Shown here piece by piece: positions 39,346 through 64,000 of a stretch of 64,000 nucleotides of DNA (position 1 is its first letter; each line of letters starts with the position of its first letter). Below the pieces are notes generated by a model. That model had not been told where the DNA came from. It saw nothing but the letters and a program-made list of their open reading frames with translations, and did no database searches. This DNA comes from Gracilaria domingensis (lineage: Eukaryota; Rhodophyta; Florideophyceae; Gracilariales; Gracilariaceae). The stretch is taken from NCBI GenBank assembly GCA_022539475.1, contig VCMS01000169.1, forward strand, positions 443,689 to 507,688. Reading direction: 5' to 3'. Made by a program: the position numbers and the translations under genes.

Positions 39346-39399
39346 GATTGTACGTGAAGTTAGGGAACAGGTCATTTCGGTAAAGTAACTTTTATGTTT

Positions 39400-39860
39400 A
39401 ACTATCTCTAAAAGGTTCCCTGTGAGATAAAGTGATGCGCGATGGATGTCCATCGGATGAAAATTTGGGATATCTATTGGATATCAGTCGGATATCTTCT
39501 GCGCATCCAGGATATCCGAATGATATGCCATGGTACTCCGGTGGATGCGCCTAATTGATACCCCTTACATGTCTTTTGGATGTACAAAAACCATTCCAAA
39601 GGTATTTATATGATGCACGAAGAGATGTCCCATGGATGTCCGAAAATGCAGGGTGCATCACTTGGATATCACAAAATCCAATGGACATCTCTTCGTACAT
39701 CATATGCATATCAGGCGGTTTTCATTAGGGTATACTTCGTGCATCATCTGAGCATCATTGACGTATATCATGTGGACATCTTAAGGAGGCCAAATGGTCA
39801 TCTTCAGGTTTCGTAATTCTAATACTGGTTATCTCGGGGATATCATCCGGACATCTATCC
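39400..39860. repeat. GGATATC/GGATGTC-rich repeat block with a foldback stem
   Basis: Variants of GGATATC, GGATGTC and their complements recur every 10-30 bp. A 24-nt stem with three mismatches pairs about 39612-39635 (GATGCACGAAGAGATGTCCC) with about 39680-39703 (GGACATCTCTTCGTACATC). No coding frame. It resembles a satellite or MITE-like foldback. It begins right after the truncated transposon copy. Confidence 0.5.
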
Positions 39861-39904
39861 ACCTCTCTGGGGTTTACAACACCGAAAAGTTATGTGTTCT
39901 AACC

Positions 39905-41008: not shown

Positions 41009-41204
41009 AGTGTGATGATGTTTTATGAAAAGTAGGTGGAAGAGTAGAAATTGTACAATGAATGAAACTGATTTCGAACCTGAGTTGTAAAGTAGTTGTA
41101 AAGTACGAGTTACGAGGAGCTTGAATACAGGATGAAAGGAGCCATTTTGGCTTCGTAAATGAAGTGAACGGGTTCTATAGCTTCACTCGGATTGCCATAA
41201 TTAA

Positions 41205-41513
41205 AAGGATGGAGTTGGGTTGCGCCCGAATACGTCTATAAAGGTCGTAGAAGCACTTATGAAGGAAGGAGTTGTAGACATGTTATTGTTGATGACGGTG
41301 GAGCCAGGGTTTGGAGGACAGGCGTTTATGGAGGGTGTTCTTGATAAGGTGCGACATGCAAGGGAGTTGTACCCAAGAATAGGGATACAGGTGGATGGGG
41401 GTATTGGACTGAGTACTGTGAAAGGAGTAGTGCAGGCCGGTGCAAACATTTCAGTTGCAGGATCTGCCATCTTTGGCTCGAGTAACCCAGCTCATGTCAT
41501 AGCTGGTTTTTGA
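41205..41513 (+). pseudogene. C-terminal half of ribulose-phosphate 3-epimerase
   Basis: The frame after TAA at 41202-41204 reads 'GLRPNTSIKVVEALMKE', 'DMLLLMTVEPGFGGQAF', 'IGIQVDGGIGLSTV' and 'VAGSAIFGSSNPA'. These are the late strands of the (beta/alpha)8 barrel of the Calvin-cycle/pentose-phosphate epimerase, including the catalytic Asp in QVDGG and the phosphate-binding GG/AGS loops. The first half of the barrel is absent upstream. It could be a truncated duplicate, or a last exon whose earlier exons lie elsewhere; an AG precedes GATGG at 41206-41207. Confidence 0.65.
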
Positions 41514-41574
41514 AAGGTTGGTTAGAGATAGTAGCATAAATTTATTGTTTATTACATTGTTACCTTTACGTGTT

Positions 41575-41945
41575 ATCATGACTATATTCTCCGTCTCCAT
41601 TGGAGATGTATTTCTCTTGTATCGCAACCGGTCAAGGATGTGAGAGAACATCAATATATCCCCAGTGGACGCTGAGAGGGAGGATGAACTACTCTACGTG
41701 CTATCATTGTTACCCATCCGGTGTCGAGTGGTGACATATTCTTTTTTGTCACAACCCACAAAGGATGTGACGGAAGAAGAACATGCCCCCAGTCGAGACA
41801 GAGGGTGAGCAACTCTAAGTACAATCACTAGTCCCTAGCTTGCCTCCACTGGCGATATCTTCCTGTTTTGCTATAAACATCGAGTGAGGTTATGGTGGAA
41901 GAGAAAAATATCGCCGGTCGAGGCGAGGTGGGTGGGGATTATGTG
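41575..41945. repeat. Three diverged tandem units of about 125-145 bp with internal dyads
   Basis: Units begin near 41590, 41715 and 41840. Each has a GG(T/A)GA-ATAT(T/C) arm, a central AAGGATGTGA/GAGTGAGGTTATG segment, and an inverse arm (ATATCCCCAGT, CATGCCCCCAGTCGA, ATATCGCCGGTCGA) ahead of a GAG-rich stretch. No coding potential. Each unit can fold on itself. Confidence 0.5.
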
Positions 41946-42163
41946 AGCGCGAAAGAGGAGACAGAGAGGTGGCGCTTAAATAGTGGAAGGTGCGAAGGTG
42001 TACAGTAGATGTTTTGGCGGGAAATGGATGAGGGAAACAGGGACAATCATGGTGCTGGATATAGCCCGTGTGGTTGGACAGTGGGGGTGGACAGCACAGT
42101 TTAGCTCGATTGCACTGTATCGCAGCGGAAACTTCGATCCAACTACTACTTGTTCTTCTGAAG

Positions 42164-43093
42164 ATGTCGAACAGATACGTGAAGGATGAGGAGCTGTTGG
42201 CGCTGTTGGAGGGGAAGGAGGTACCGCCGACGCCGTCACCAAAGCGGGAAGAGGACGTGATTACGGCGGCTGGCCGGATGTCGCAGAAGAAGGGAGTGGC
42301 CGATGAAGGAAAGAAGTGTGAGGCAAGGAGAGGGGATGGTGATGAGCTGGAGAAGGGTGTAGAATTGGAGGTGGAGGGGGTCGCAATAGAGAGAAGGGGT
42401 GCCGTGCATCTGAGTCAGTTAGAGGTTGGAGACCAGATAGAGAGTGGGGGCGGAGAGGGTGACAGGGAGATGCGGTTTGTGTGGGAGATGAAGGCGAGGG
42501 TGGGGATGTTGGGGTTGATGATGAGGGAGCAACTGGACGATGGAATTGTGGAGATTGTAACGGAAATCGGCGGTGTGGTACTGAGTGGGGGTGGTAGTGG
42601 TGTTTCGGTTGAGGCGATTTCGAGCCTGCGGAATTCGTTGTTGGTATTTGGAGTGGAGATGAGAAATCATGTGTATGGGATAGTGGAGTGTGCGGGAAGG
42701 GAGGTTGGAGAGTTGCGGGAGGAGAATAGGGTTCTGAACGAGAGGTTGGACGTGCTGGAGAAGGAGGTAAAGGAGCTGGGCAAAAGGCAAAGATTGGTGG
42801 AAGAGGAGACGGTGAAAGGAGGTGTGGAGGGAAAGACGGAGAAGGGAAGTGTGGGAAGGGTGGCGGTGCAGAAGGGGTCAGCTGTGACACCGAAGACAAA
42901 GCGTGGTGGGGTTGGGGATGGGAAGAGTCGTCTGAAGAAGAGGCGTAAGGAGATGAAAAAGGTGGTGGAGGAGGTGCCGCGGGAGGGAGTCGGAGCTCCG
43001 GTGGTGACTGGGTTTAGGAGTGCGGCGGAGGTAGCGCGGACTGCGAAGGGGACTCTGAGGGGACAGGAGGAGAGAAGGATGGGAGGGATTTGA
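42164..43093 (+). CDS. Unknown basic protein with a coiled coil
   Basis: ATG 42164 (MSNRYVKDEELLALLEGKE) opens a 309-residue frame. It has an acidic/basic N-terminal part; a helical middle ('EMKARVGMLGLMMREQLDDG'); a coiled coil at about residues 180-225 ('LREENRVLNERLDVLEKE'); and a Lys/Arg-rich tail ('KSRLKKRRKEMKKVV') that could be a nuclear localisation signal. No family recognised. Its last about 25 residues lie inside the left inverted-repeat arm of the element at 43066-47095. It may therefore belong to that element, or be a host gene with the repeat abutting its 3' end. The frame is intact and GA-rich in composition. Confidence 0.5.
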   Translation: MSNRYVKDEELLALLEGKEVPPTPSPKREEDVITAAGRMSQKKGVADEGKKCEARRGDGDELEKGVELEVEGVAIERRGAVHLSQLEVGDQIESGGGEGDREMRFVWEMKARVGMLGLMMREQLDDGIVEIVTEIGGVVLSGGGSGVSVEAISSLRNSLLVFGVEMRNHVYGIVECAGREVGELREENRVLNERLDVLEKEVKELGKRQRLVEEETVKGGVEGKTEKGSVGRVAVQKGSAVTPKTKRGGVGDGKSRLKKRRKEMKKVVEEVPREGVGAPVVTGFRSAAEVARTAKGTLRGQEERRMGGI

Positions 43094-43525
43094 AGCCGTT
43101 CTGGGGCGAGGCGGGTATACGAGAAGGGGGAGGGTTGTCCACCTGACTTCTACAAAATGACGTTTGCGGAGACGGAGAGAGAGAATGCGAACGCGTGATC
43201 GGCGAGAAATGGGTAAATAGCGGGGGTGGTGTGGACTGGGAAGAAGTGATGGGATGATTGAGGTGGGATGAATTGCGATTGGCATTGCAACATGGGAGAA
43301 AATGGAAACGCAAACTAGCACGAGTGCAGTTTTGAGAGAGGGTCGCGGAAAAGAGTGAATGGGGTGGTGCGGCGAAGTAGAACCTCTACAAAAACTAGGG
43401 GACCCAAGAACTAAACTGCGCGAGATGGAATTTAATATTCCAAAATTTCTAAATTTTTTGAGTGCCAGCCTCTGCTACCCCCTCGCGCGCCCCAAATAGC
43501 CCCAAAACTAGCTTAGTTTCCAAAG
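43071..43525 (+). repeat. Left arm of the long inverted repeat
   Basis: Pairs with 46640-47093. It includes the end of the ORF at 42164-43093. Confidence 0.75.
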
Positions 43526-43769
43526 CTAACAAACTATATTCCACTTTGCAGAACACAGACGAGTCAGCTTCCGAGAATACTACGGCTGGAACATGCATTT
43601 GCTGCAGTACCCCTCTGAGCACCACCACCGCGATCGCATATCTTCAAAACATCATGATCATACCCAAAACTCATCTTCAACACTTCTTCATCGGCTGTTG
43701 CATGTAAACTTTTCCTTCGCACAGTCCACATACCTCGATCGCATCATCACAGAAAGCCGTAAATGGACA

Positions 43770-45655: not shown

Positions 45656-45786
45656 CGAACTGTATAAAGAACAGCAGCTCGCTCATTTGGATTGCAATCG
45701 ATCACATTATTATCTCAGATTTCATCAATTGCCCTTGTAGGGGAGTATACGCGATATCATAGGTCCCAATACCCAAAATATCAATT

Positions 45787-46602
45787 CTATACGCATCCAA
45801 GATGTTCCGTAATCTCTTCCATGAATACATCTTCTCGAACAGCTAGATATAGCTTCTTCTTAGACGGTATCCAGTATGCCACAGTTCCCACACGGTCATC
45901 ATTTCCATGGGGTGGATATTGAGCCATTGAGTCGTTCCTGAACCCCGTTCCAAACTTTTGTTCCATTTTCATTCTGACAGCCATCAGTATACTTTCCAAC
46001 GTCTATGGAACATACTTTCCGAAGATGTTGGAGAAGAACAATTGCCTTTTAGCCCCGCGCTCTCCTTTAAAATCTGTACCTCGAACAACTAACGCGACCC
46101 AAGCGTCTAGACGCGCCAACTGCACTATTGTGGCATCCATTGGGTCCTTTTCTCCCGCATTTCTCGAATCCTTTTGGTCTAAATCGTAACCCAGAAACTT
46201 CCGTAAGACCTGTAGGCTTAGAAAGTTCCTAAACAGCAAGTCTTGGCGCTTGTTCTCTTCGCCACGCATTTTGAACCCGGAAAATGATATGTCTTGTCTT
46301 TCAGATATTCTCCATGTAGAGAGAATTTCACACTCTTTTGCATCTAGCGGCAGAAGCTTCTCCCGTAGTTCTTCCGCTTTTTTTAGGAATATGCTGGTCT
46401 CCCTTTCATGAGATGGTGTCTTCACAAACGTGTCATACCCTAGCACCATCAACAGCTTCTCCTTTGCATGGCGTTTTCGAACCCCCACCTCATCGCTTAA
46501 GGCCTGCTTCAACCGCTTCCGTAAGCACATGTCGCTGGTCAGCTGTCTGATGCATTCCTCTTCCACCTTCATCTCCGGGATGGATTCCCAACGAGATTTC
46601 AT
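45787..46602 (-). pseudogene. Diverged relative of the coiled-coil accessory protein (C-terminal two thirds)
   Basis: 'IRQLTSDMCLRKRLKQALS', 'VGVRKRHAKEKLLMVLGYD', 'LQVLRKFLGYDLDQKD' and 'IVQLARLDAWVALVV' align with the conserved part of the 52442-54833 protein. After TAG at 46003-46005 the same frame continues with 'TVAYWIPSKKKLYLAV' and ends in 'EITEHLGCV', matching that protein's 'GRLYLTV...SVSRRLGS' end. The N-terminal basic and coiled-coil parts are missing. The sequence divergence (roughly a third to a half of residues conserved by eye) shows this is an older lineage rather than a recent copy. It defines the conserved core of an otherwise unknown family. Confidence 0.7.
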
Positions 46603-46639
46603 TCCTCTGTGTTCGGCAAAGTGGAATATAGTCTGTTCG

Positions 46640-47093
46640 CTTTGTAAACTAAGCTAGTTTTTGGGCTATTTGGGGCGCGCGAGGGGGTGGCAGAGGCTGG
46701 CACTCAAAAATTAAGAAATTTTGGAATATTAAATTCCACCTCGCGCAGTTTCATTCTTGGGTCTTCTAGTTTTTGTAGAGGTTCTATTTCGCCACACCAC
46801 TCCATCCACTCTTTCCCGCGACCCTCTCTCAAAACTGCGCTCGTGCTAGTTTGCGTTTCCATTTTCTCCCATGTTGCAATGCCAATCGCAACTCATCCCA
46901 CCTCAATCATCCCATCATTCCATCCCATTCCACACTACCCCCACTCTTTATCCATTTCTCGCCCATCACGCGTTCGCATCCTCCCTCTCCGTCTCCGCAA
47001 ACGTCATTCTGTAGAAGTCAGATGGGCAACTCTCCCCATTCTCGTATACCCGCCTCGCCCCAAAATATCCTCACATCCCTCCCATCCTTCTCT
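46640..47093 (-). repeat. Right arm of the long inverted repeat
   Basis: Inverse of 43071-43525. It abuts the left end of the large transposon at 47096. Confidence 0.75.
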
Positions 47094-47095
47094 TC

Positions 47096-49266
47096 GTCTG
47101 TCTCTTGCAGATGCTAGTTTTTGGCGAGGGTCGTCCAGAAATTGGCAAGGGTCGTCCAGTAAATTTTTTGAAAAAATATCGAGATCAATTATTTCAAAAT
47201 TTGCAGATAATTGCTTGGGTCGTCCAGAATCGCTGTGCAGTAAATACTGGTGGGTTTTCCACTCGTGCTAGTTCTTCAGTCGAGGGCTACCTGAACCATA
47301 TTTCGCGAAGTCTAGGTTCAGTTTCCATTAAGGTGCACATTACACGATACCTTCTGCGGAATGATACCCTGCAACGCATGGAATACTGGTGCTAGTACAG
47401 ATGATGCCCATTCTGAAATCACACCGTTTTATTCGTATCTATTCTTCTATCGACCGCTTTTGCTAACCACTACTTCGCTATATTACATGTACCATTTCCC
47501 CATAATGGAGCGGGTGTAGGCGCAATCTGCGGCAGATGCCGCAGACTGCACCTCCACCATAGTGCTGGATCGGTAGAACAAATACGCACTCCGAGAGGAT
47601 GAGGCGCGAAGCGCCTCATCCTCTCCGTTCCTCATGTAGGGAGCCATGCCCAGATGCATGGTTCCCTACTTGAGGAACCTGCACCTGCAACTCGTGAGCT
47701 ACGTCCGCATCAAAAGTCATTTACCTGTATACGCAAGCACAAAGTATCCATAAGTTAGTCAATGATCCGTTGGATACATTTGAAATGCGATGGAACGTAC
47801 CATTGATAAAACAAAACAGAAACGTTGCGCTAGAAAAGTCGAGGGACCTGGTAACTCGCAAACGGAAGAAGAAGCAGGAAAGGGATCGGTTAGATTACCA
47901 GCCCACCATATCATCGTAAACCGCGAAAGGTGTCGAAGCGAGAACTCACAAGCAAGGACACCGAGAATGCCCATGCAGCAAACATACCGCAAGACGCGAT
48001 AAACGAGAATCTAGCCTATATCCCAAACAAGTACCAGAATCGACTATCCCGAACAGTCAGACAGGTAAACGACCAATTTCATTTCTTCTCTCAAGATCGA
48101 TGATGGATCTGGAGAGATGAAATAAAATTGGTCGTTTACCTGTATACGCAAGCAGAAAGTATCCATAAGTTAGTCAATGCTCCGTTGGAAACATTTGAAT
48201 TGCGATGGAACGTACCATTGATAAAGCAAAACAGAAACGTTGCGCTAGAAAAGTCGAGGGACCTAGTAACTCGCAAAAGGAAGAAGAAGAAGGAAAGTGA
48301 TCGGTTAGATTACCAGCAATCCATTCATCGTAAAACGCGAAAGGTCTCGAAGCAAGAACTCACAAGCAACGACACCGAGAATGCCCATGCAGCAAACATA
48401 CCGCAAGATGCGATAAACGAGACAGAAACCTATGTCTCAACCAAGTACCAGAATCGCCTATCCCGAACAGGCAGAGATCCAAGATCGCAGAACCAACTGG
48501 TTGTGCGCCATAGCTAGCCTCGATCTGCGCTACGGCAGCGCAAGACGCGAAGCTAGAGCCTATGGCGCAACGAAATGAACTATTGGTCGCGTACTTACAG
48601 TCGTCGGTTTGGGTTACCGGGTTCCCGTTTTCACCCTTCAACTCGTTCTATATCTTGAACAAATAGAAGAAGTTGAGGGTGATTAGCTTATTTCCTGCCG
48701 TTTCCATGTCGCAGAGCGCGAAGAAACGCGGTGAGGATTGGTTAGTTTAGAGCAAAGATACGTGGAAGGATATGGGAGAACGTACGAAAAGACTGCACGG
48801 AATACATCCCTGAGATACGGATGACTCCGTCCTACTTTCTTCCGCCTCTACTTTATGGAGCCTCCATAAAGTGGAGGGCGGGAAAAAGTACGACGGAGCG
48901 GAGTATAACGCGATGATATCGATGGCATGGCTCACGACGGTAACGGAAGTTCGGACGTCGGAGGCGCGGCGGCGGCGGCGAGGGAAGAGATTTATTTTTC
49001 TGTGCGAGATTGGACAAGTGTACAGCGTACAACGTTGGGAAACCACAGGTTTATAACCAGTGGTAGATAATACGAGAAGTACACCCTTGTGTTGAGGTCG
49101 ACGTGTACCTACGTTCCTTTTTGAACGAAAGCACGTGATTTAAACTCAAAATATATTCTCCGTTCTCAGCAAGACGTCGATCTTGACTGTCGCTCGACCT
49201 CCTTCTCCCTTCGGACGCCCTTCCCTTGCAGTCTTTGTCGTCGTTTCTCGTTCAGTTCTTCTTCCC
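47096..49266 (+). repeat. Left leader of the large transposon: hairpins and tandem repeats
   Basis: Same composition as 34185-36011: hairpins at about 47595-47680 and about 48835-48890 (CTACTTTATGGAG/CTCCATAAAGTGG), and a repeated unit starting TTTACCTGTATACGCAAGCA at about 47720 and about 48136. The second unit is extended by a 3' part with GGCGCA/TGCGCC words around 48500-48570. No supported gene, although short Lys-rich frames exist within the repeats. Confidence 0.55.
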
Positions 49267-52200
49267 ATGGTCTACTACTGTACACATAAGAAGCGTGGGT
49301 GCCCCTTCGTTACTCGCCGAGGAGTCTTATCCCTTCAACAGCATGTCAACCATTGCCCGTTTCGTCTGAAAGCAGCGCTGGAAGACGACAATAGCCGGCC
49401 CATTCGGAGAAGCAAGCGTCTCAAGCTTTCCGCACCCGCGCCCGCATCTTCCGAAACGGTCACTGCCCCTTGTCGCCTTCCCGAGCCTCCAGTGTCCGAG
49501 GACATCGTCGACCCCACTCCGTGCGCCCCTCCCATTCCGGACACTTCGCATTGTGTTTCTCCTTCCCCGGCTCCCGCGTCATTAGAGCGAGAACACGGAA
49601 GCAGTTCCCGCCCAGTGCCTTCTGAGGAGGCCCTCGGTGATTTGCATATGGATTATCTCACGGTTTGTCTGGCTTCAGTAGCTTCCAACCTTGGTCATCG
49701 TGAGGCGACGAGCTAATTGGGCTACTTCGGGACCCGCGATTCTCGCAAAAGCGATTCAACGAGACCATAACAAGTTCCAAGCGCTGTACAGAACTGAAGA
49801 ACGCCATTTTCGAACGATACGCCTCAAAGGACGGTTTCAATCGCAGAACTGTCTCGCCAGAAGGATGTAAGTTCAGCGCCACCCTCTACACGAGAGACCC
49901 CGTTCAGACACTTGTGAAACAGCTCCAGTTGGCTAACAACGAAAACACATTCTTCCACCCTATACCTCAGACCCACTCCACGAAAATATCTCACCCCATG
50001 TCCGGCTCTCTCGCAAGAGACGCCACCTCAAAACTTAAGGAAATGGTCATGGGCTCTTTGGATAGTAGAATAGTGTGGTACTCCCAAGAAATAAGTTACA
50101 GTGAATCTTTCGTAGGTCTTCTGCAGGTATACACCGATAAGTCTTCAACAACTCTAAAGCAAACATCGGTTACCGCCTATCCTCTTCACCTCATATTTCT
50201 CAACTTCTCCGACGAGCTTCGCCGTAAGTGTATCCGTGATGACCTCACAGTAGTGGCATACTTCCCTACCACACTGATCGAGGTTTCCGCATCTGAAGCA
50301 GACGCAATGCCATTCGTTTCTAGCAAGTCTCTACGCGAGTCCAGGATGCAAATCCTTCAAGAATCTCTTCGTCAAGTCCTGGAGCCCATTCTAAATCTCA
50401 CGCAGAAAGGTTTTCAGTTCATCGGCGAAGACAAACTAAGTCGAGTGTGCCATCCTCTGCTTGCAAGTTATTGTGCGGATATTCCTGAGGCTAAGGACAT
50501 TCTGTCCATTCTTCATGGGACCAAAACGGAAAGCCCGTGTCATAGATGCAAAGCCCCTCGCTCATCTTTATGCAGTCCTATTCCCACCTCATTCAACGGA
50601 CGTTCTCAAAAGCACACGAAAAGCATCCGAAAGACATACACAGCTATCTTGCAACATGCACAAAAAGACGAGGCGGAAAGACGTCCACGTCGTGCGAGGG
50701 AGAGGAGATCTCAAGCGGATACTCTGATGCGTTCAAATTCCATATCTCTCATTCCTTCGTTCCTCGAAACTTCCGTAAGCCTTGGAATGATCCCGGGATT
50801 GTCTCCATACAGTCTGTTCTCATTCGAACCATTACACAACTTGCATCTCGGCATCTCAAAGTTGATAAAAACGGCCACAATCGAGAGACTGCAGTCAGAC
50901 ACCCTGTGCACCACAATAGGAACATCTGCATCGCGTTCATTTCGAACGATACGCACCCAACTCCTCAACCATGCAAACGCAATTCTAGCTGCCATAGAAC
51001 GCGATTCTCCTGCCAAAGGTTTACATATCGATTTCTCCACGCAGGAGAAAGGCAAATCTTTGAATGGTATCTTCACGAAAGACGGTCTCCGTGGAATGCT
51101 GGAGGCCAAAAACTACAAAGCACTTGACATGGTCTTTCCCTTCATAGGAGCATTCTTTGACATATGCTGTGGAGAACAGGACGTTGCCCCAATCACAACC
51201 GTTTTCTCTCAGTACTCGGACTTGCTCTCGACCTTATTCAGATACAATCGTGACCCGTATTGGACTGAAAGCTCTCTCCTGTGTCTTAGTTCGGAGATTG
51301 AAGCCTTCAAGCGTTCCGCAACAAAGACTCTGGCGGATTTTCATCCCTCCAGACTGGGAACTCTGAAGTTTCATCTTCTCGATCATCTCGTGGACGATAT
51401 TCGCCGTCTGGGAAGTATCAAGTACTACGACGCAGGCATATACGAACATGCACACCTGCTATTTAAAAGACACTACAAAAAGACGTCCAGAAGAACAGCA
51501 ACGGCTGTGGAGGAGACTATTCGCTCCATTGAGCACGGACATGTTAGAAAGCAATGGAATGGCAATACTCCTTACCAGCGTAATCCAGGTTTACCAGGAA
51601 CTTCCACACAGCTTCCTCGGTTTGCAATGAGAGGGCGTTCTTTCACTTTACGAGCTCTTCAACATTGTGTTTCAAGTATGTCCAGTTCAAAAACATGGAC
51701 TGCTGTTAGAGAAATGTTCTCAAGTACGGACACAAGGTCGATTCTTGATCAAATTGGTGAACAGGCCCTTCCTCCTTTCCTCAGTCTCGTGAAAGAAACA
51801 CTGGATGAGCACTCTATTACATACTTCCCAGAAAAGACAAGGATAACTCTGGTGAATTCGGCCCTCGTGAAAGGCGGTTTCGTTCCGACTCTTGAACACT
51901 TCGATTCGTCTTCTAAGGCACTTAAGCTGGGACGACCCAAATACCCCATCATCCAACGTGTCTTCGCTTCTCCAGCATTTGGTCCCAGTAGAAAGCCAAA
52001 GTTTTCCACTGTATTGGTAAGCGGAGAAGATTCAGAGACTTGGGTTGCCCAGGTAGTCGCTCTGATTCGAATATCTCTCCTTGATTCTGCACTTACCGCA
52101 CCAGAGGTGGCATTCGTCCGGTATTTCGAGGTTTTACCCCCCGCAACAAACATCGACCACATATTGAAATGCATATCTTTACGGTGGGCTACAAACGATG

Positions 52201-52445
52201 AAAAGAACCACACTCTTCCGTTCCCTCGTCATTCCAAAGCGGAGACTATCGTAGAGTTAACTCCTTGGTACGGGATGGTTCCGGCTTCTGCACTACAGGG
52301 AACTGTCCATGTTGTTCGATCAAACTACCCTGCTCCACCTTTTTGTCCTCCACTTCAATGGTTTCAACACCGATTCTACATCAATCGATTCTATCATGAT
52401 TCAGATGAAGGACCAACTGAGCACGTTGATCTTGTACAGCCTTAA
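49267..52445 (+). pseudogene. KDZ/Plavaka-like transposase, full-length copy with one frameshift
   Basis: ATG 49267 (MVYYCTHKKRGC): Cys5, Cys12, His26 and Cys30 form a zinc finger. A Ser/Pro-rich linker follows. A one-base deletion at about 49700 ends the first frame at 49716; the rest is open to TAA 52443-52445. The core includes 'ESPCHRCKAP', 'FSFEPLHNLHLGISKLI', 'FDICCGEQDVAP', 'EIEAFKRSA', 'KFHLLDHLVDDIRRLGSI', 'YEHAHLLFKRHYKKTSRR' and a C-terminal 'ELTPWYGMVPAS'. CxxC, LHxLxxG and the RRxGS...H..FK order resemble KDZ (Kyakuja-Dileera-Zisupton)/Plavaka transposases, which have an RNase H fold. Its last 4 bp (TTAA) overlap the stop of the convergent gene. Assignment is by motif recall; a profile search would settle it. 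Confidence 0.7.
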
Positions 52446-54833
52446 ACATTAAGGGCTCCATCCTCTACATGTTCACCTTGTGGTGCCTTTTCTTGTGATC
52501 CTGTGTTACTTCCGAAATCGTTCATGTCCATTTCCTTGAACTCCATATCCCCTTCCTCGCATTCACCAACGAAGCAATCGCTAATAGACCCCAATCTTCG
52601 GCTCACACTGTCAATAAAAAATTGTTCTTTCACAGTGAGGTAAAGTCTTCCGTTCGACGGCATTCGATATCCAAATGTAGCCTCTCTCATGTCATTACCA
52701 AGAACCTTAGTCCAATCTTCCGTTGTCGTTCCAAAATTATGAAACTCGCTGGAATTGGTCCTCAAGACATGTTGCCTAACATCCCCCAGAACATTCTTTA
52801 AACACAGAGGTAGCAGTTCAGCAAACTTCTTTGTAAACAGTTTCTGTCTCTGGCCACCCCTTGACACATCCGTACTTAGAAGGCTCACAACCGTCAACAC
52901 CCAAGCGTCCAAACGTGCGAGCAACAGTATTGTGCCATCTAAAAAGGTGCCCGTATCCTTGTCTTCCACATCATACCCAATAAACTCCTTCAGCACTTGT
53001 ACCCCGACACGGTTTCGGAAGAACAAGTCTTGATCTTCCGTCGGCATATCCTCGACATTGTCCGCATTGGAGTACTTTAGACGAACAAATGGGGCTTTTC
53101 TCCACCATGAAGTGTTCGGTACACCATTTTCGTCAAGACGCAGTATGTTCTCCTGCGCTTCCTTCAACTGCATTGTGAGTTCGTCAGCATTCTCTTCTAC
53201 CAGCTTTGTTCTTCTCCAAATCAGATCGTACCCCAGGAGCAGAAATAGTTTATCCCTCGTATTTCTCTTACGAACGCCCACGACGTCACTCATGGTCTGC
53301 CGCATTCTCTGCCTAAGGCACATATCTGCACAAAGTTCCAGTATACACCTGTCGGTAAGAGATGCTTTTCTAATACCTTCCCAGCTCAACTCCTTCAACT
53401 CGCTTTCAACCATTTTCTTCAGCAAAGCATCTGGCCCCCCCTCTACCGACGGTGTGAACATGCCAAAACTGCCCAAGAGCTCCACGGGGTTTTTAGGAAC
53501 CATGTATGAACCACCTTCCTCCGGCTCAATAAGCCCTTCCCCACTCTCAGTTGCGTCTTCCACCTTCTCGGCACGGTTACCCCAATTTCGGGTGAGCGAC
53601 TCACCTTCGAGCCATAGCTCACTTGTTTCTCTCCTTGCCCACGTCAGCATGTTGTGATACACTGCTCGAGCAACCCCTCGAAACTCGTCGCACACCTCAA
53701 TTTTATGCTTCTTTCGACCTGTCTGCCCAGGTTCACCAGCACGTGTACTCCTATCTCCCTCCTGTTTCAGTGCCCCTCTTAGCCCTTCAATGACTAGATC
53801 CTTCTCTTCAAGCCTCTTTTTCAAAGCCGTACTCTGCTCTTGGGCGACCTTCACTAGAATTCCCCGAACCATCAAGTCCTCTTGTAGCGTCTTAACCTTT
53901 TCTTTCAAGCAATTCAGTTCATTTAAAAGATCAGGTCTGTTCATAGAGCTTGAATTCACACCAGTTTGGATATCTTCCGTTATTTCCCTAGCTCTTCGGC
54001 GACAGGCCCCGGTAATGCCGCAGGATTCGGTGTTATTTCGTTATCGGAACTATCCTCATGTGCCATAGCCTTAGCCACGAGAGGCTGCAGGCGTTCTGTG
54101 TCCACCCTTGGCACGGCTCCGAGCTCCAACTCCCGTGTATGTCCTCCTCCATGGCATGGTATATCAGATGAATTGGGCCTCGTACGAGCTGCAACGGCCC
54201 CCGTTCTGGAAAGAGGGGAAGGTCGAAAAGTAACTCGTCTATCAGTTGTCTCTCGATTTCTTATTGTTTTCTCCCTTGTCCGGACCCATTGCGAGGCATG
54301 ATACGATTCATAGCGGCCCCAGTTCTAGAAGAAGGGATGGACGTGACGATCTTAATATACTAGGCTCTCACGACTTCTCGTCATTGTCCCTTGTTGTCCA
54401 GATCCACTGGGCGGCGTAACCCGCGCCCCAGTAGCTCCGGTCTTCGATATCGGCCGGGGACATGAAGGTTTTGGTGTCATACGAACCTCTTCGTTCCAGT
54501 TGTCATGCCCTCCTGTCCTGACCCGCTGGGCCGAGTTACCTCATCTTCTTGAGGAGCAGAGACAGATGCACGATTTGCATTATCGGCAGTTGACGGCACG
54601 ACATCGTTCGCTGATCCACGAATTCTTGACGCAATCCCGGAAGACGCTCCGCTGCGAGATGGGCGAGAGAGTCCTGTAGAAGGACGCCCACTGACTCTCT
54701 CCTTCGTCGAGGACGACTTCCGTTTAGGAAGTGCGGTGCTTGTAGCCTGATTCGTATCATCCGATGCTCTTCTCTTCTTCTGTCCACTCTTGTTCCGCTG
54801 CGTACTATTTCGCTTTCTCGGCGTTATACCCAT
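52442..54833 (-). pseudogene. Basic coiled-coil accessory protein of the large transposon, copy 2
   Basis: The start at ATG 54833 (MGITPRKRNSTQ) is chosen because it follows a non-coding G-rich tract and is conserved in copy 1. The ancestral product would be about 800 residues: a basic disordered N-terminus with SRTGA/SGQ repeats; a coiled coil (residues 8-60 of the frame beginning MNSSSMNRPD at 53959); an acidic middle; and a conserved C-terminal core ('LCADMCLRQRMRQTM', 'LFLLLGYDLIW', 'VLKEFIGYDVEDKD', 'LLLARLDAWVL', 'GRLYLTVKEQFF'). Indels at about 54490 and several between 53960 and 54480 break the N-terminus; 52442-53959 is open. Unknown family; nuclear and chromatin-associated by composition. 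It is convergent with the transposase and separated by 250 bp from the SET gene on the same strand. Confidence 0.7.
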
Positions 54834-55080
54834 GTTGTGGAGATAAACAGGGTAATGAAACGAAATTGTTGGGGAGGGGGGAGGGGTGGGGGGGGGGTGC
54901 ATGGTTCAGATATTCCGGGAGACTCCGCAGTTCCTGCTTTTTAGGAATTTGAGGTGCCCAATGGGTCGCAAATATCGCCGTTACAGATGAAGAGCTCCAG
55001 TGTACATGTACAACAACGCGTATTGCAGGCAGCTGCAACACTCACAAGCATATTTACTTTCTATTCGCTACTGAACTCAT

Positions 55081-58000
55081 CTATTGCTCCAATGTCAGAG
55101 CCCAGTCCCAGGCGTACTGCTCTCCGTAGTGAAATACAACTCTTCGCCCCTCTCAATATCTCTTACTGCTCTACAACGAAGTAGAGCATAGTTAGAAAGG
55201 TCTGACTTAACTGTATCACGGACTTCGCTTCCACCACCTGCACATTGGCACTTCGAGTCCTGTTTGACCGGGGCTCCGATAAATCGGGATCCCCGGCATG
55301 ATATCCGGCGTCGTTAATGTAGCCCCCGATACAAAAAGGCGCCGGGACAATGTAGACTTCGCTCTCCTTTCTATCCTGAGCCTGTCCTGGTCTGTTCCTC
55401 AGGTGCAGAAACTCCGTACCAGTCACAGTGACCATCATAGAAAACAACTTGTACCGCACTGGAGTTGCTCCGAGACAGCCACTTCCATACGTTAAGTGTC
55501 TTTCCTTCCGGTTCGTCAGATCCGTGTATACCAAAGTTCCATAGAAATGACAGATAGTTTCCCCAGCCAATATCTTATGTTCCGTGAACACCCCCATACC
55601 AGCACGGGGATGTCGAATCTTAGAAGATGCTACATGTAAGCGATAGCGATTGGCTTCAACAGTCAACAGCATATGCATATCCATAAGATTCAGAGCTCCT
55701 CGGTACTTCCCTCCCAAAGATCTACAGTACGCTGTCCACACTTGTCGACAAAGTCCCAGTCCTTCCAGTATCTTCCTAGGAACTGAGTAATATGTCCAGG
55801 CATCACTTGGTACTGGGGGTAACCAAATGGAGCCTCCCATTCAAGCCGACCTCGGTCCCGATGTGGAACCCGTTCATAGTCGTTGAAGCCGCATCCACCA
55901 CCTCCTGTTCAACCAGGATGTCATTCTTCCCCCCGCGAATAACTTCGGCCATAAGAGTCGTTAGATGGTGCTTCGCATGGCTGAAACATGGCCTATTCTT
56001 CTCGCACCCCAAGAACTTCCTATGCTTTGTCAGCGATAGGCACGCCATACCCGTAGAAAAAGTTCCCGCGAACATGTCCATGACAAGATCACCCGGTCTT
56101 GTGAAGCGACATATCAACTCCTTCATCAACTCCCTCGACTTCTGCTCCGGTCTTATGTACTGCCCACCTGGTACTGAACTACCTGGCTCATGTACCTTCC
56201 ATGTCAACCACTCCCCCGCTCTCGGTTTGGCACCCGGTCAATTACATTCCTGTTAGCCGGGAAAGTGGAAGGAATGAAATTGTTCTCCTCAAATGGAGTA
56301 AGACTGGCTTCCTCCGATGGTCGCAATCCACGCTTCACCCCATGAACGGCGTACTCCGTTACGGGCTGTATCCCAAACTTCCGTGGATTCCCTCCAACAT
56401 TACTGCGATCCCGGATGAACACCAGTGGATTCGCATCCACTTTAAACGAAGGCATGAGTTCTGGTTTACCTTCGCTTCCAGCTTCATCTTTCGTACTCGC
56501 CGTTTCCGAAAGTATCCTGTGCCAAACATGAAACTGTGCCATGGCACAGAATATAATGAAGTGCCCACCTGACCGAAGCGCGGAACTTATTAAGTCAGCC
56601 GTACGGATCATGTCTTCCTCACTGAAGACATCGTGACCACTATTCCGTTTGTTCCTCTTCCTTCGAGTGTTAAAGGGAGGGTCTGTTAGGACAAGCTGTG
56701 CCTCACCCCATAAAATCTCACTCTGATTCACAAACGTTTCGTGTGTGTGCCTCAGGTCCTTCATGTCACAGTTGTACGCTACAAAGTGTGACTTTCTCAT
56801 CCCCTTCCACACCTTGTCCATATTCATTCGAAGGAGACTGGATATCCCCTTCATGGGCGGCTCAATACCAGTCTTTTGGATGTTGTAACCGGCAACCCGA
56901 GATTCATGCTCCGCAAGATTCACCGGCTTCTCGAACTCGTCGCTATCGGAGCTCACGAGGTTCATATACTCTCGACGAGGTGGGGGTGGGGCAGACTTGG
57001 TCGAAGAAGGTTCGGCATTACCGGAAGTTTTAGGGGTTTTCGTCAGTTCAATATCAGGTTTCGCGTGAATGCCGACATGGAACCCTGCCGCATGACGCAT
57101 ATCCTGTATCGGTTTCCATAGCAACTCCGAAAACTTCTGAAATCGAGCAGGCAACTCACCGGAGTCAGAGCTAGATACGGTATCCATCCGTATCTCCGAA
57201 AACTCTATCCAGTTCCTCATCTGATCAACCCGTAAGCTATAGAGGCTATCGTGGGTGCATATGGTTTCGAGGTCTGTCAAAAACTCCTTAGCCAGTATTC
57301 GCAGGTTTGTATCGCATTCATCACTCAAGGTCTCCACCGATCCACTAGTACTGCTCTGTGGCACATCCTTTGTGTTGAATCGAGTACTCTGGCTCGGCGG
57401 GGCATAACCAGACTCCCGTGTCTCTAGCGCTGTATACTTCAACGTCTGCATATTCATGTAAATGTATGGTTTCACCATGTGCTGAACGTTCGTGTATCCA
57501 AGATGAGCCGCAAAACAACTCCATGCCCATACGACCTCACTGATAGCGAATCCCAGTCGATCACAGTTGTCTTTGGAGAACGACGTAAAAGTGGGTATGT
57601 ACACAGATGGTGCATGGTTCACTTTTCGTTTCTTTTTCGGTTGTTTCTTCTTCATCATTCGGATGTTGTCGTTCTCTCCCATTATGTGGCCGAGGTATGA
57701 TAAGTATATAACGACCTCAAATGGGTTCACAGCTGTTGGTGGGATGAACACTGTCGTCTTCAGAACCTGCTTTCTCCTGGTCATGAAATAACCAACCAGG
57801 CATCGCACCGGTAGGTATATACCCATATCCATAGAGAGAAGGAAAAAATCGCGCAGTCTCTGGTCCTCATCCCCGTCCTTCTTGTCAAGAAGCTTCGTTA
57901 CAAGATATCGCTGTTCCACAGGTTTGTTATTCACAACACTCTTTCGCAGCTGTTGCAGTGTCAAGTTCTGCAGGTTCTTGGAGTTAGTGGCCTCCTCAAA

Positions 58001-58213
58001 CATCTTCCTTGCCTCCGGAATATCCTTATAGTTCTCGGCGCAGAACTCTATTAACCCTCTAAACCCCACGTCCCGTGGCCGATCAGGGCCTCCATCGCTG
58101 TTTGCCAAAGCATCGCGAAGAACCAAGAAAAGTCTGACATATGCATGGAACGCCGGAGGCGGAGCACTCATGTCGATAGGATGTATCTCCTCTCCAACAT
58201 CGGTGGAATCCAT
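55081..58213 (-). pseudogene. Beta-class amino DNA methyltransferase fused to a SET domain
   Basis: The first frame (58213-56204, 669 codons) starts MDSTDVGEEIHPID. It has a helical N-terminal region, an exact PKKKRKV-type nuclear localisation signal (residues 192-198) and catalytic motif IV 'LVLTDPPF' (DPPF 511-514). The next frame (56207-55803) has motif X/I: 'YIRPEQKSRELM', 'DMFAGTFSTGMA' and 'LGCEKNR' (SAM binding). IV before I is the beta-class order of N6-adenine/N4-cytosine methyltransferases. After a short shifted linker ('EWEAPFGYPQYQVMP') comes SET: 'GVFTEHKILAGETICHFYG', 'YINDAGYH', 'RTRSANVQVVEA', then the GEELYFNYG motif best read from copy 1. Frameshifts at about 56207, about 55820, about 55715, about 55215 and about 55130. 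It shares its promoter region with the ParB-dioxygenase gene. Confidence 0.75.
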
Positions 58214-59169
58214 CGCTTCAGCGCAAACAACGGAGGCGAGCCTTTAAATGGCGACTTACGCTGGGCACCCCCGCTTTCGGCAGCTCCTCCCAGCGCACTG
58301 CCAGTCTCGTCCGTGTCCGTGTCCGCTCGGAGCGATAGCGTCGCGTGTCGGAGCGATAGCGTCGCGTGTCGGCCACGTCGCGATTCGGAGCTATTGCAAC
58401 GGTCCCGTATTGTGCTAAAAGTCGCGGATCAAGTGGGTGTGAAGCGCTAGTTTTCTCTAGTTTGATATATGTGTACGGCGTGTGCAGCGAAATCACTGCC
58501 GGAAGTGCCGGGAGGAGTGTTTTGGGAGGTCTCCGGAAGGGCGCCGGAATGTGGCCAGAACGTGCCCGCGGGCGGGGGGGGGTCCGGTCGTGTTAGGGTA
58601 GGTACCCTAACACGACCGGACCCCCCCGCCCGCGGGCACGTTTTGGCGATTTTTTGAAAAATGTGCGATTTTATGCCCGCGGGCGGGGGGTCCGGTCGTG
58701 TTAGGGTACTACCCTAACACGACCGACCCCCCCCGCCCGCGGGCACGTTCTGGCCACATTCCGGGCCTTCCGGGACCTCCCAAAACACGCCGCCGCGCAG
58801 TGATTTCGCTACACCCGGCCGCCGGTACGTTGGCGCCGCTGTCCACGTGTATTGGCGGGAGTAGGCTGTACATGGAAGTGAATGAGTGTACTCTTGACTA
58901 CTATGCAAAGCATTTGAAGAGCATGATTAGAGAACGCGACCATTGCTCGCGTGAGTCATCATTGCGCGAACTCCACGACTCTAAAGCGTACAATCAGCGT
59001 GCGAGCGGCCACGGACAGGACACGGACGAGACTGGCAGTGCGCTGGGAGGAGCTGCCGAAAGCGGGGGTGCCCAGCGTAAGTCGCCATTTAAAGGCTCGC
59101 CTCCGTTGTTGTATCGTCCAGAGCGAGCGTATTGTTGATATACACCTTTCACTGCAATAGCTGTTCAAC
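58214..59169. promoter_or_regulatory. Bidirectional control region built of nested inverted repeats
   Basis: This region separates the divergent methyltransferase-SET and ParB-dioxygenase genes. The outer arms, about 58231-58320 and about 59021-59107, are nearly perfect inverted copies of one leader. The leader contains TTTAAAG (TATA-like) and GTAAGT (possible splice donor), so both genes get the same upstream sequence. An inner inverted repeat (about 58490-58610 and about 58695-58815, starting CGAAATCACTGCCG) surrounds two GTTAGGGTA palindromes. The leader is also kept in copy 3 (39110-39210). A possible leader intron before the plus gene (GTAAGT 59075 to AG about 59158) is inference. Confidence 0.65.
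58584..58725. repeat. Two palindromes CCGGTCGTGTTAGGGTA/TACCCTAACACGACCGG
   Basis: Perfect 17-bp arms with a 2-nt centre at 58584-58619; a second copy with a 1-nt centre at about 58692-58725. They are separated by a GC-rich spacer containing CCCGCGGGC, as in copy 3 (38560-38820). Confidence 0.85.
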
Positions 59170-62100
59170 ATGAAGCCAACTCGTGTTCGAAAGCGTACGC
59201 AAAGCGTGACTCCTCGCACTCGGCGGAGCACTCGATTATTGCAAGGTGGAATGCGGGTTTCTCTGCAGATGGATATTGAGATGAAGGAAAGGTGATAGTC
59301 GGGGAAGCGTTGTTGCATGGAATTGGAAGTGTTCTACGCCGCGAGTTGCACGGGAAGCAATTGGACCCAGGTCTTGTGGTGGTTCATAATATTCTCATCA
59401 GTCGAAGCGGTCAGACGTTCTACCCTTACCGGGCGGAGGGCCTGGATCTTCCACAATATATCCAGGATCTCCGGACGGCCGCTCCTTGGGATGAGAAAAT
59501 GATGGAACCGGTGGCAGCCAGCATTCCGGCGTCGAAGCGAGGAACGGTGAGCGCTATGAGTGAGGTGATGACGCCGACAAGCCGCACGGAGCCAATTCGA
59601 AGTTCATCAACACCGAGAGGTAGCGCATCAGTAGCACCTCCGCGGGCAGGTCCGTCGTCTGTTACGAAGCGGTCTATGGAGACGAGAGCATCCCCAGCTA
59701 CGAAGCGGACAGGTCAAACAAAGTCTACCTCCGCTACGAAGCCCACTGCGTCGAAAAGGGCTTCTCCTGCGATGAATCAGACCGTCGACACAAGGGGATC
59801 TTCTGCGTCGAAACAGACGGTTCAGCAGGGGACGGCTGTGCAAGAGGAGGAAGATGAGATCATGAAAGGTCCCCTTCCAGACGCGGATGCGCAATCCGCG
59901 CAAGGAGCTGGTCCATCTGTACCCCAAACTGCACCAGAAACTGCGGAGCAGCAGGACGATGACGTTGTGCTTCTGTCCGCAAGAATGGCACGTTCAAGTG
60001 TTTCTGGCGAGCGGTCTGGAACACAAGGGACACCTACTCGGAGCAAGACGTACAGACGAATTCGTCAGAAGGTACCAAAGGTGAACCTCAATCAGTACCG
60101 GATGGTTGTTGTTACTGTTGACATCACTCTGGTGGACACTCCGCCCAATTTACTCCGTGGAGTAAGTAAACGCCACGTTGAAGCCCTTGTGAAGAGTATG
60201 GAGGAGCGGGGGATATTGCAGTCGATGGGTTCTCCAGTGGTGGCCTTACAAGATGCTACTACGGGAGAGAGGGATACTGACAAGGGACGCCTAACGAAGA
60301 AGTGCTTCATTGTAGATGGTTTGCATCGTCTGAAAGCTATACAATATTTGGCAGCGACTGGTGCACCGAAGTGGAAGCGATTAGCCAAGTTTTGGCGTTG
60401 CAATCTGCTGATACGAAGAGATGGGAGGCCCATTGGGATGAAGGAATTGTTATGTGTTGCTTCGTACCTCAATGAGTCGACGAGTACCATGCGAAGGATG
60501 ATGTTTGCAGACAAGATACACTCTATAGTTAGTGTGGTCGCCATTCTAATTGAAGATGTTGAGGGGGTGACGCCGGCAGACGTGGATCCTGCAGAAGTGA
60601 CAGAAGTGTTGAAGGAGAGCCAACTGATTGGGACTGTGCAAGAGCGTCAGTACCTGAGATATGCCAATGTCGCCCTGCAACTCATGTCTCGTGAGGGAAT
60701 GCTGGCCCATTTCGAGGATATATGTGAGACTGTGAGTGACATAGGTCTCACACATCTGTCCCATACTCCGCTATATGTTTTGGATGCCGAGGAGTTTTCC
60801 TTCATTCTTGATTGTCTTCAGATGTTTCTATTGAAGGGCAAGTCGACGAAGACAAAGCAATGGAAAAGCTTTGAGGAGGTTCGAGGTTTCTTTTATGATA
60901 GAGCAGTGTCTCTGTTCCGCGCGGCTAGAGCAGTGAGGAATGAACTGAACGAGGAAGAGTCCATGGAAGTGTTCCTGAAACGCGAAGTCAGTCTTTCTGC
61001 TCCATCGAATGAAGATGACGTTGAAGACCCAGACAACAACGCAGCTGTGTATCAGTTCCTTTTGGGACAAGTTGTGAACTTCAACACATTGCCGCGTGTT
61101 CGGAGCAGGACGAACTCAATTAGAACTGCCACGACTTCCGTTCAGAATCGATTGCGGACGATGCTCAAGGTAATTCCGCCCCCGCACCAGTGAAGCAGTC
61201 CGTGACGAAGAGGAGGACTCCCGCTGCTGCTGCTGCAACATCTGCCAGTGAAGAAGGGGAGCCGCGAAGAAGTGCACGAGAACGGGCGCAGGTGAGTTAT
61301 AGGGAAATTGAGCACGGCCGAAATCGAGGTGCCATAGAAGTTCTGGATAGCTCTGAAGAAGAACAGCGGGCTCCGCCGAGGAAGAAACGGAGAAAGACTT
61401 TCACACAACAGATGAGATCTACTCTGAACAGCATGACACCGGATGACCTGATGTCTCAACTAAATGAACATGTGCTGAGAGGAAGGTCGATGAAGGTTCA
61501 GTTCGTGGCATTGGGAGAGGGAGCGAATGCAGAGAACGCAGGCAGTTCTGCATTTGTGGATGACGATGAGCTTCTTTCTGTGACAGTTCCACGGGTTGTC
61601 ACCGTCGAGAAAGATGCTGCGCCAGACGATCAGCAAGAGACAGGTGGGGGGTCATTTGATGACGAGTTACCTACAGCTCTTCCGGAATCTGAGGAGCACG
61701 GACTTGTTCGAGGTGACCCATATGATGGCCCACTGAACCCATCATGGTGCGGGTATGCCAGGCTGAGACCGCAGGAATGGCAAGGGAAGAACGTAATTGA
61801 GCACAAGGACCCCTGGCTCAGAGTCATTCACTTGCCGAAGGGACATAGGTCGGAGCTGCTAAGTGTCTCGAATCTCAGAGATGTACACCATCTTGTCTTT
61901 TGGCACGCTGCAAGGGCTGAACATCGCCTACGGGCGGAGACATTTGGTATGCAGTATCCTCGTACTCGACCGACAGGTATGGATGATGAAGAGGTGCTGT
62001 GGGTTGCTGCGAAGGAGCATGACGAATTTGGGCAAATGTTCTTCGCCCGAATGCAAGCTGAGCTAAGGCAGAATGGATATTGCGTGCTTGATGGCTTTGC

Positions 62101-63084
62101 GACGGATAATGGTGTCCCTAAATGGGAGGAGTTGGAAGAAGTTCGGGAGTTCGGAGATGTGTCGGGGAAGTTGGTGGACTTCTTCGAGAATGAGTATGGA
62201 GCGATGCCGGATATACGGAAAGGAGAGGAACAGAAGTCGTTTGTTCAAATAATCAACGATGATGAAGGATGGAAGGACGGTAGCGATGGACCATTTGAGG
62301 GGAGAGTGATGTCGACACGTTGGGGTACGGTGGAGAAGCCGGAGGATAATGAGGAGCTCAGGTGGGTTGTAAGGTCGCGTGCTTTACTTGATGTTCGAAT
62401 GGGTACAATTGCTGCGGCTTTGGGACTATGGGACAATGAAAGGGAAGCTGTGAAGATGTACACTCCGAAAACTGGTGGTCGATTTCTGGGGACGACGAGA
62501 AAGTGCAAGCGCCAGACGCTGCACACCGACTTCAGTGGTCTGGTTACGAAGGAAACAATGAATACTGGCAACCCCGGATACTTTGTAATGGCCTCTGGGA
62601 AAGAGGGCTTTCCTCTCTGGGTGAGCGCTGGAAGCCATCAACTGGTGGGGATGAACAACCAACAGTTGCGAGTGATGTCGGAGGTGTATCCAGCGAAGAA
62701 GATAATCATCCCACCGTACTCTGTATTCGTGGGCCGTGGTGATGTGACACATGCTGGAGCAAGTGGGAAGGACAAGGTGGATAGGCCCGAGTCTATGGAT
62801 TTGCTGGTTAGATACCACATGTACATGGTACCAGAGGGCTACGCACTACCTGATGCTGTTCATCGGGTGCGGGATTTCCGACCCACGTTTGTCAATGGTG
62901 ACGAGGAGGAGGAGGCGGAGGATGAACTGTTGTCCGATAAGGAGGGTGGGCGGTTGACATGGACGAAGACCAAGTGGTCGTGGAGATTGGTGTGGAAGCG
63001 GACGCCGGTAGAACCGAAGTGCTCGAGAGTAGTAGTGATGACGATTTGCCAATAATGAGGCTGCGAGCGCCTCGAAGTGGATGA
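59170..63084 (+). pseudogene. ParB/Srx-like domain + 2OG-Fe(II) dioxygenase-like protein, copy 2
   Basis: The start at ATG 59170 (MKPTRVRKRTQS) is supported by conservation in copy 3. One-base deletions at about 59280, about 61180 (a C run) and about 62949 (a G run) break the frame, but copy 1's premature stop is absent here (sense codon at the matching place). ParB-like motif 'FIVDGLHRLKA' (about 60310-60345). Dioxygenase ligands: 'LHTDF' (His codon 62522-62524, Asp 62528-62530), 'VTHAGASG' and 'LLVRYH' are all conserved, although the residues around the distal His vary (GYVKH in copy 1, GDVTH here). In bacteria and phages, ParB-like domains often pair with beta-class DNA methyltransferases, which fits the divergent neighbour. 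The predicted location is nuclear; substrate unproven. Confidence 0.72.
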
Positions 63085-63344
63085 GAATGAGATGATTAGT
63101 AAATTATGTGTGTCTTGCGAGTATTAAGAGTAGTATACTATTACAAGGCTATACATATGAACATAGAAAAGGTGCGGCAGGCTGGTAATTGAACAAATGT
63201 CAAACGTCTTTGGTCCAGTTGCGTCTAATTGCAACATGCCAAATGCTCGGTATCGTTAACATCATTGGTGGCACCAGTCAATTCGCAATTGAACATGTAG
63301 CGTCCTAACATTCTGAAACTGCACTTAAGGTTGCTTTTAAGAGA

Positions 63345-63705
63345 AGTTGAAACTGAGAAGTCTATACAGTTCCTGTCTATGCGGTACTTGTGGCAGTATG
63401 GTGACTGTATCAGGAAAAATGGCAGAGGAACAGAGAGACTTGGCGGAAATTTCACCAAATACCTTGTCTAAGTTCATATATGCCAATGGTTACGGTATAT
63501 TAAGTTCCGTTGATGGAACGTTGAGAAGAGAAGGAGAGTCAATTCCAGAAGAAGTTGTGAAGTGTATGAAGTTCATTGACGAACGTGTTGGTTTCGGACT
63601 TGTCACAGGGGGTGATGTGGGCGACGTGGAGGGGAAAATGGAAGGACTCGGAGACTATAAGTTTGGTGTCTCGGCGAATCATGGAGCTTTTTCCTGCGTT
63701 TCTCT
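63345..63705 (+). pseudogene. HAD-like phosphatase fragment, second copy
   Basis: Duplicate of 6444-6804 with the ATG lost (AGTATGAAAC is AGTTGAAAC here). It keeps 'SSVDGTLRREGE' and 'GFGLVTGGDVGDVE'. After 63704 the sequence is unrelated to copy 1. Confidence 0.45.
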
Positions 63706-64000
63706 CGGTGGAGCGACGAGAACTTTACGCGGGTGAATTCCACACTGATCACTCTACCCTTCTTCTTGACCAACTCCTTGGCTTTGAAGCCGGTCTTTGC
63801 TATTGTTTTCCTGTTGGCAAGTATCTTTACATAGAAGGCATGAGGTCATGTTGATGACTGATATGAGAAGGAGTTCGTGGGAGACTCAGAAGGTGATAGT
63901 GGCGTTCCAGTTTCGTGTCAACAACTGGGCGAGTGGAGAGCAAGAAGTGGATATCTGGCTATTGGACTGTTGCAGATAGATGCGATGCGTTTGTTATTAT
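63706..64000. other. Right flank, no supported gene
   Basis: A short plus-strand frame (to 63854, 'ELYAGEFHTDHSTLLLDQL') continues from the HAD-like remnant but is not recognisable. The window ends here. Confidence 0.3.

Follow-up and report, generated by a model that had tools for sequence, protein, structure and literature searches.

The window studied here, a 64,000-nucleotide stretch of contig VCMS01000169.1 from the red alga Gracilaria domingensis, holds several copies of a multigene block that almost certainly represents a giant DNA transposon of cut-and-paste type, belonging to the Plavaka (EnSpm-like) group. Along with its transposase, the element encodes a polypeptide that joins a predicted DNA amino-methyltransferase to a SET domain, a ParB-like protein with a putative 2-oxoglutarate (2OG) oxygenase region, and HAD-type proteins. 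Transposons with one captured chromatin enzyme are already known. If our reading is true, a DNA amino-methyltransferase-SET protein in a multicopy element would couple DNA and histone marking in one molecule, and whether elements impose their own chromatin state would become testable. Overall, we lean slightly toward a mobile Plavaka element whose chromatin-enzyme cargo serves the element itself.

Ends, copies, and transposase of the element

The termini of the element read CGTCTGT...ACAGACG, with CGTCTGTCTCTTGCAGA at the left end and, reversed, CGTCTGTGTTCTGCAAA at the right. In other copies the right terminus reads ...AACACAGACG; it was located in two further copies as well as in copy B of the window. 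A 16-base pattern covering both termini had 1028 matches in the assembly (77.9 Mb in 680 contigs), versus 3 for a reversed-pattern control, which rules out chance. The left boundary is sharp: all 30 of the left-end loci that we fetched, the window locus among them, begin identically, and they have 28 distinct flanks, two pairs of loci having a common flank. A 2-bp target duplication was found in 8 of 9 flank pairs; copy B has one (AG) and the C5 full-length copy has none, giving 9 of 11 insertions in total. Together with the transposase, the termini, duplications, and copy number bear out the claim of an earlier, sequence-only reading that the block is a mobile DNA element. That reading had also described sharp boundaries common to the copies and had ended the block at 63704. 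The left boundary stands; the right one is ruled out, since other copies run further and copy C of the window itself goes on to the window end. The longest copy (C5) measures 22.9 kb, and the full element is about 6 kb longer than the earlier interval, the extra sequence comprising two HAD-type genes, one Rossmann-like gene, and one coiled-coil gene.

Within the window we found the two long copies and the deletion copy that had been proposed as a minimum. Copy C (47095-64000, plus strand) has its left terminus at 47095, and its right part is cut by the contig end, which is also the window end; past 63704 it continues to that end as error-rich sequence with many insertions or deletions (indels). 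Copy A (1-6883, plus strand) represents the right part of another copy and breaks off on its right side at 6883. Copy B (34184-43561, plus strand) retains both termini between AG duplications at 34182-34183 and 43562-43563 and is an internal deletion derivative; its transposase frame (35932-38463, plus strand) has an internal deletion as well. The left terminal inverted repeat of copy C, CGTCTGTCTCTTGCAGA, occupies 47095-47111 (plus strand), and the right one of copy B, the reverse complement CGTCTGTGTTCTGCAAA, lies at 43545-43561 (minus strand). Three GGTCGTCCAG subterminal repeats follow the left terminus of copy C (47121-47230, plus strand), and the same set is present in copy B. These repeats may be sites for the transposase; the right end of copy B yielded none.

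Genome-wide, the first 100 listed of the 1028 termini include 24 neighboring left/right end pairs, with lengths of 6.4 to 22.9 kb. Five of the 24 paired copies exceed 19 kb, and seven measure 10.2-10.5 kb. One 10.3-kb copy, of which the middle 4 kb were read, retains fragments of the ParB and HAD genes, with methyltransferase and SET missing. Because scars of the ParB and HAD genes remain, this copy is a deletion derivative; on the evidence of this one copy, the 10-kb form is ruled out as the ancestor of the 23-kb form. Short forms in general would likewise be deletion derivatives, moved in trans.

The transposase-like gene noticed earlier in the block has been borne out as a Plavaka transposase. 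Its 913-amino-acid frame (49704-52442, plus strand; a different frame upstream holds the N-terminal part) matches Pfam Plavaka (PF18759) with an expect value (E) of 5.2e-19, the sole Pfam match at E up to 1. We gathered 56 relatives at 28-52% identity, PF18759 being present in 55 of them. All 10 aligned sequences, namely, the element and nine relatives, share D145 and D259, the CxxC at 279/282, the HxxxH at 557/561, and E581 without variation. The acidic residues that may be catalytic were assigned from motif order in the accessible part of Kojima 2025 (PMC12730594). According to that part, Plavaka/EnSpm-like (CMCT) transposons have C(2)C and H(3-4)H motifs between the second D and the E and duplicate 2-5 bp of target, a range that includes the 2 bp seen in our 9 of 11 insertions. 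The same pages group Plavaka with EnSpm and separate it from the KDZ groups, to which it has no sequence similarity, so the suggested link to KDZ transposases falls. KDZ identity is ruled out by the sole Pfam match to Plavaka, the Plavaka residue motifs, and a 2-bp duplication versus one of 8 bp in Zisupton.

The fungal elements invoked as a setting by the sequence-only reading belong to other hosts, as this one resides in a red alga. Like PlavakaA and PlavakaB of fungi, as described in the accessible part of PMC12730594, our element has a C(2)C plus H(3-4)H transposase and a 2-bp duplication (2 or 3 in PlavakaB). An accessory oxygenase would be a further likeness, of TET/JBP type in some fungal Plavaka elements and here putative and without a family match. 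Unlike fungal Plavaka, it has a red-algal host and different termini, and its cargo includes, in addition, a methyltransferase-SET fusion, a ParB-like region, and HAD proteins. Since CGTCTGT..ACAGACG does not match the PlavakaA/PlavakaB termini (TGT..ACA or CATCA..TGATG), we place the element in neither subgroup.

The methyltransferase-SET fusion and its fellow cargo genes

The amino-DNA-methyltransferase and SET domains had been predicted earlier as products of two genes. Both domains hold up by profile; the separation does not, as intact copies encode them in a single frame of 1055 amino acids. The N6_N4_Mtase profile matches residues 516-753 (E 3.9e-15), and the SET profile matches residues 883-1042 (E 1.8e-7; 32 bits versus a curated cutoff of 22.4); by profile, the latter part is a member of the SET-domain lysine methyltransferase family. 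In copy C the fusion gene (55084-58243, minus strand) falls into several frames, and it is because small indels split the fusion frame that two genes were read there. The window copy is 99.7% identical at the DNA level to an intact copy, L004, but carries small indels, some of which may be assembly errors. The 65 copies scored out of 867 candidates are 92-100% identical in the methyltransferase frame, and in 9 of them the 1055-amino-acid frame is intact, the matched part being free of stops.

In the fusion protein, TDPPF precedes DMFAGTFSTG, that is, DPPx comes before the FxGxx motif that binds S-adenosylmethionine, as in beta-class amino-DNA-methyltransferases. The nearest solved relatives of the methyltransferase are DpnA and CcrM. 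Four phage records match its domain alone, and three of these are methylases at 29% identity. Judged by its relatives, the methyltransferase is of prokaryote type. Its DPPF suggests adenine as the target base, making N6-methyladenine (6mA) likelier than N4-methylcytosine (4mC); the accessible part of PMC8885841 reports that this domain class repeatedly evolved either specificity. For the whole fusion protein, no homolog was found at E 0.001 among 6992 candidates from a set of 5.8 billion proteins, nor any relative in viral contigs and prokaryote genomes with scans that detect close relatives only; a viral or bacterial source is rejected to that extent. At another locus (L009, on C564), the methyltransferase frame passes after residue 877 into other sequence that is DDE transposase-like by eye; another element may have inserted there.

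The genes of the block co-occur in many other copies, as had been proposed, and the cargo keeps a single gene order. Motif searches allowing up to 3 mismatches counted 198 methyltransferase, 217 SET, 233 ParB, 240 oxygenase, and 347 transposase sites, with 0 for the controls. We examined partners for 58 of the 100 listed methyltransferase sites, using 72 of the 100 listed oxygenase sites and 100 transposase sites, on contigs up to C144. Among these 58 exact matches, a transposase motif accompanies 34 and an oxygenase motif 28, each with the side and strand expected; both partners occur at 19 sites, at least one at 43, and neither at 15. The wrong-strand control gave 3 and 0, respectively. When the same 58 sites were compared with 67 of the 100 listed SET sites, 44 had a SET motif on the same strand, 1081-1282 bases downstream (exactly 1089 in 14), and 14 had none. 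These figures are lower bounds, since exact listed matches alone were used.

We detected selective constraint on the methyltransferase. Pairwise ratios of nonsynonymous to synonymous substitution rates (dN/dS) relative to L004 range from 0.11 to 0.59 in the 23 copies with a defined ratio; pooled over nine copies, they are 0.39 for the N-terminal part, 0.31 for the methyltransferase, 0.48 for the linker, and 0.56 for SET. In a second test, each distinct change among 25 copies was counted once and compared with a null in which those base changes were placed at random. Relative to this null, the nonsynonymous/synonymous ratio of the whole fusion protein was 0.70, a level that 0 of 1000 shuffles reached. 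The methyltransferase stood at 0.63 (reached by 9 shuffles in 1000), the N-terminal part at 0.70 (by 10), and the linker at 0.53 (by 26). In these 25 copies, C-to-T changes were no more common at CpG than at other C positions; hence, there is no sign of decay driven by 5-methylcytosine (5mC), and a counter-5mC role, as proposed for TET-bearing fungal elements, looks less likely.

The next cargo gene (59280-63081, plus strand) changes frame in copy C near 61180 and near 62950; the corresponding frame of copy A spans 3021-6176. It had been read as ParB plus 2OG-oxygenase. The ParB-type part draws moderate evidence from a ParB-like match in PHROGs (best E 5.3e-5), and the putative oxygenase is called from a motif only, an HTD...H...R stretch present in the three copies compared. 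In 2OG-Fe(II) oxygenases, HxD...H...R belongs to a double-stranded beta-helix. In three copies, dN/dS is 0.63, 0.53, and 0.35 for the whole frame and 0.61, 0.55, and 0.32 for the oxygenase part. Among scored database candidates, the protein has two relatives, both from G. domingensis, and no phage record matched it. A scan of viral contigs, reaching close relatives only, gave no hit to the oxygenase half. The two HAD-type genes beyond 63704 have opposite orientations and are 49% identical to each other; part of the first is seen in the window (63446-63688, plus strand) and continues to the window end. The Rossmann-like gene of copy B (39908-41152, minus strand) is ketopantoate-reductase-like by eye, with no significant family match.

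Possible roles of the cargo

Already described are giant EnSpm/Plavaka elements that carry accessory genes, among them elements of red algae, as well as transposons that encode SET and others that encode TET/JBP oxygenases. Petroll et al. 2025 reportedly treat elements of Bostrychia and discuss large Plavaka elements. The accessible part of PMC12477816 credits Petroll et al. 2025 (Current Biology) with giant EnSpm elements and accessory genes in red algae, so the giant EnSpm type, the accessory genes, and the host group are common to both; those elements may be relatives of the G. domingensis element or may carry the same cargo. Amoebidium has Plavaka giant repeats as well, with database matches that include red algae, but many of their genes are tyrosine recombinases, and the accessible part of PMC11244446 does not mention a methyltransferase-SET protein, "SET domain" being absent from the main text. 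According to what is accessible of PMC12730594, TET/JBP oxygenases occur in several transposon lineages, including Plavaka, and SET occurs in HarbingerS and MuDR of Phytophthora. The latter share a SET methyltransferase within a DNA transposon with our element, yet they belong to other transposase superfamilies, and no fused DNA methyltransferase is mentioned in that part.

A parallel to the fusion itself is N4CMT of bdelloids, which also joins a prokaryote-type amino-DNA-methyltransferase to a eukaryotic chromatin domain (PMC8885841, accessible part). In contrast, N4CMT has a chromodomain, a reader, and is a host-captured gene that deposits 4mC at transposons, whereas the domain here is SET, of writer type, and is encoded by the transposon. 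Retrotransposons with cytosine methyltransferases are likewise mobile elements with a DNA methyltransferase; however, as far as the accessible part of PMC5890265 describes them, these enzymes are C5-cytosine methyltransferases in retrotransposons rather than an amino-methyltransferase in a DNA transposon. Our searches, limited to open-license PMC papers, turned up no description of a transposon-borne amino-DNA-methyltransferase-SET fusion.

We propose that the transposase would act on the terminal and subterminal repeats and would move not only the 23-kb form but also, in trans, the short deletion derivatives. The methyltransferase-SET protein would mark the DNA and nucleosomes of element copies as a dual writer and, with the ParB/oxygenase protein, could keep element chromatin permissive against host silencing. 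Such an anti-silencing or self-marking role is plausible, at somewhat less than an even chance. A more elaborate version is doubtful: a portable epigenetic system in which one polypeptide writes DNA amino-methyl and histone-lysine methyl marks at element copies, and the base mark is then processed further or removed by HAD phosphatases and an oxygenase that ParB guides. If true, chromatin state would travel with the element.

Several results weigh against a mobile element with functional chromatin-enzyme cargo. The C5 full-length copy, its sequence partly unread, has no matching target duplication, and most of the 65 scored copies have no intact fusion frame. Our shuffling test did not resolve constraint on SET (0.85 of the null; 323 of 1000 shuffles as low), and the ParB part gave dN/dS values of 2.74, 1.51, and 0.30 in three copies with very few changes. 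The ParB region has no match to Pfam ParB and no significant match to PDB sequences; its single-sequence fold is poor, with a predicted local distance difference test score (pLDDT) of 36. The oxygenase region has no significant match in Pfam, PHROGs, or PDB sequences, and a single-sequence prediction gave no usable fold (pLDDT 31). The TET/JBP dioxygenase family was likewise without a Pfam match there, in a search with a limit of E 10 whose HMMER filters drop most hits above 0.1, so that a diverged member could be missed.

Among the alternatives, cargo that represses the element is unlikely. Here the methyltransferase-SET protein and its partners would hold copies at low activity as copy-number self-control, comparable to the transposon-silencing loop of DNA and histone methylation in bdelloid rotifers, where N4CMT marks coincide with silent histone marks (PMC8885841, accessible part). 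The red alga Cyanidioschyzon merolae offers some support, since H3K27me3 covers and silences its transposons; the review that reports this states, in its accessible part, that DNA methylation is absent (PMC13062707), and another paper, also accessible in part, describes an expressed Dnmt3 gene in C. merolae. However, the 92-100% identity of the 65 scored copies points to recent, vigorous spread.

Equally improbable, in our estimate, are passenger genes, captured from the host or a foreign source without benefit to the element. The SET result of the shuffling test fits this explanation. Moreover, copy B and one 10.3-kb copy are without methyltransferase and SET, and these copies, with the 7 of 24 pairs at 10.2-10.5 kb, indicate that such forms spread without those genes. 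Yet the whole fusion is under constraint in the same test, and four cargo motifs persist at 198-240 copies.

Less probable still is a role of the cargo in transposition, in which methylation of the ends would tune transposase binding or couple excision to replication, and ParB would mark or bridge the ends. Dam regulates Tn10 in a comparable way. The prokaryote-type methyltransferase, with DpnA and CcrM as its nearest kin and further matches among phage DNA methylases, and the repeated GGTCGTCCAG motifs at the left end would suit this role. Nevertheless, it leaves SET, HAD, and the Rossmann-like gene unexplained, and copy B yielded no such repeats at its right terminus. Finally, segmental duplication of ordinary host genes has virtually no chance of being right, as nothing beyond the two pairs of left-end loci with common flanks favors it, and the termini, target duplications, transposase, and diverse flanks refute it.

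Other features of the window and neighboring sequence

Between the transposase and fusion genes of copy C lies a gene for a protein that is coiled-coil-like by eye (52445-54040, minus strand); Pfam gave nothing for it at E up to 1. A repeat-rich stretch with direct and inverted repeats (58226-59250) separates two divergent cargo genes, and copy B holds a second coiled-coil-like element gene (42065-43090, plus strand). The left end of copy C adjoins an inverted right-end fragment of another copy (46606-47093, minus strand). Next to this fragment, 45772-46590 (minus strand) encodes a diverged relative of the 52445-54040 protein, with 34.5% identity over 278 residues; this is probably what remains of an older cousin element.

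Outside the element, retrotransposon remains occupy 18352-25268. They include an integrase with H2C2, rve, and a chromodomain (18352-20283, plus strand) and a reverse transcriptase fragment on the opposite strand (20376-22133, minus strand). A scan of the window for Rfam RNAs at gathering level and for tRNAs found none. The frame at 15907-17178 (minus strand) has a phosphotransferase domain of the APH family (E 1.8e-10) and is also ecdysteroid-kinase-like. Two divergent membrane-protein-like frames, alike by eye, lie at 11737-14897, with no Pfam match at E 0.01. The stretch 7062-8509, to the right of copy A, matches five places at 85-87%, spread over contigs C35 and C341. At a locus elsewhere in the genome (L070), a 315-amino-acid frame that is transposase-like by eye (locus positions 5057-6001, minus strand) lies just right of the element's right end; that copy may sit inside a different transposon.

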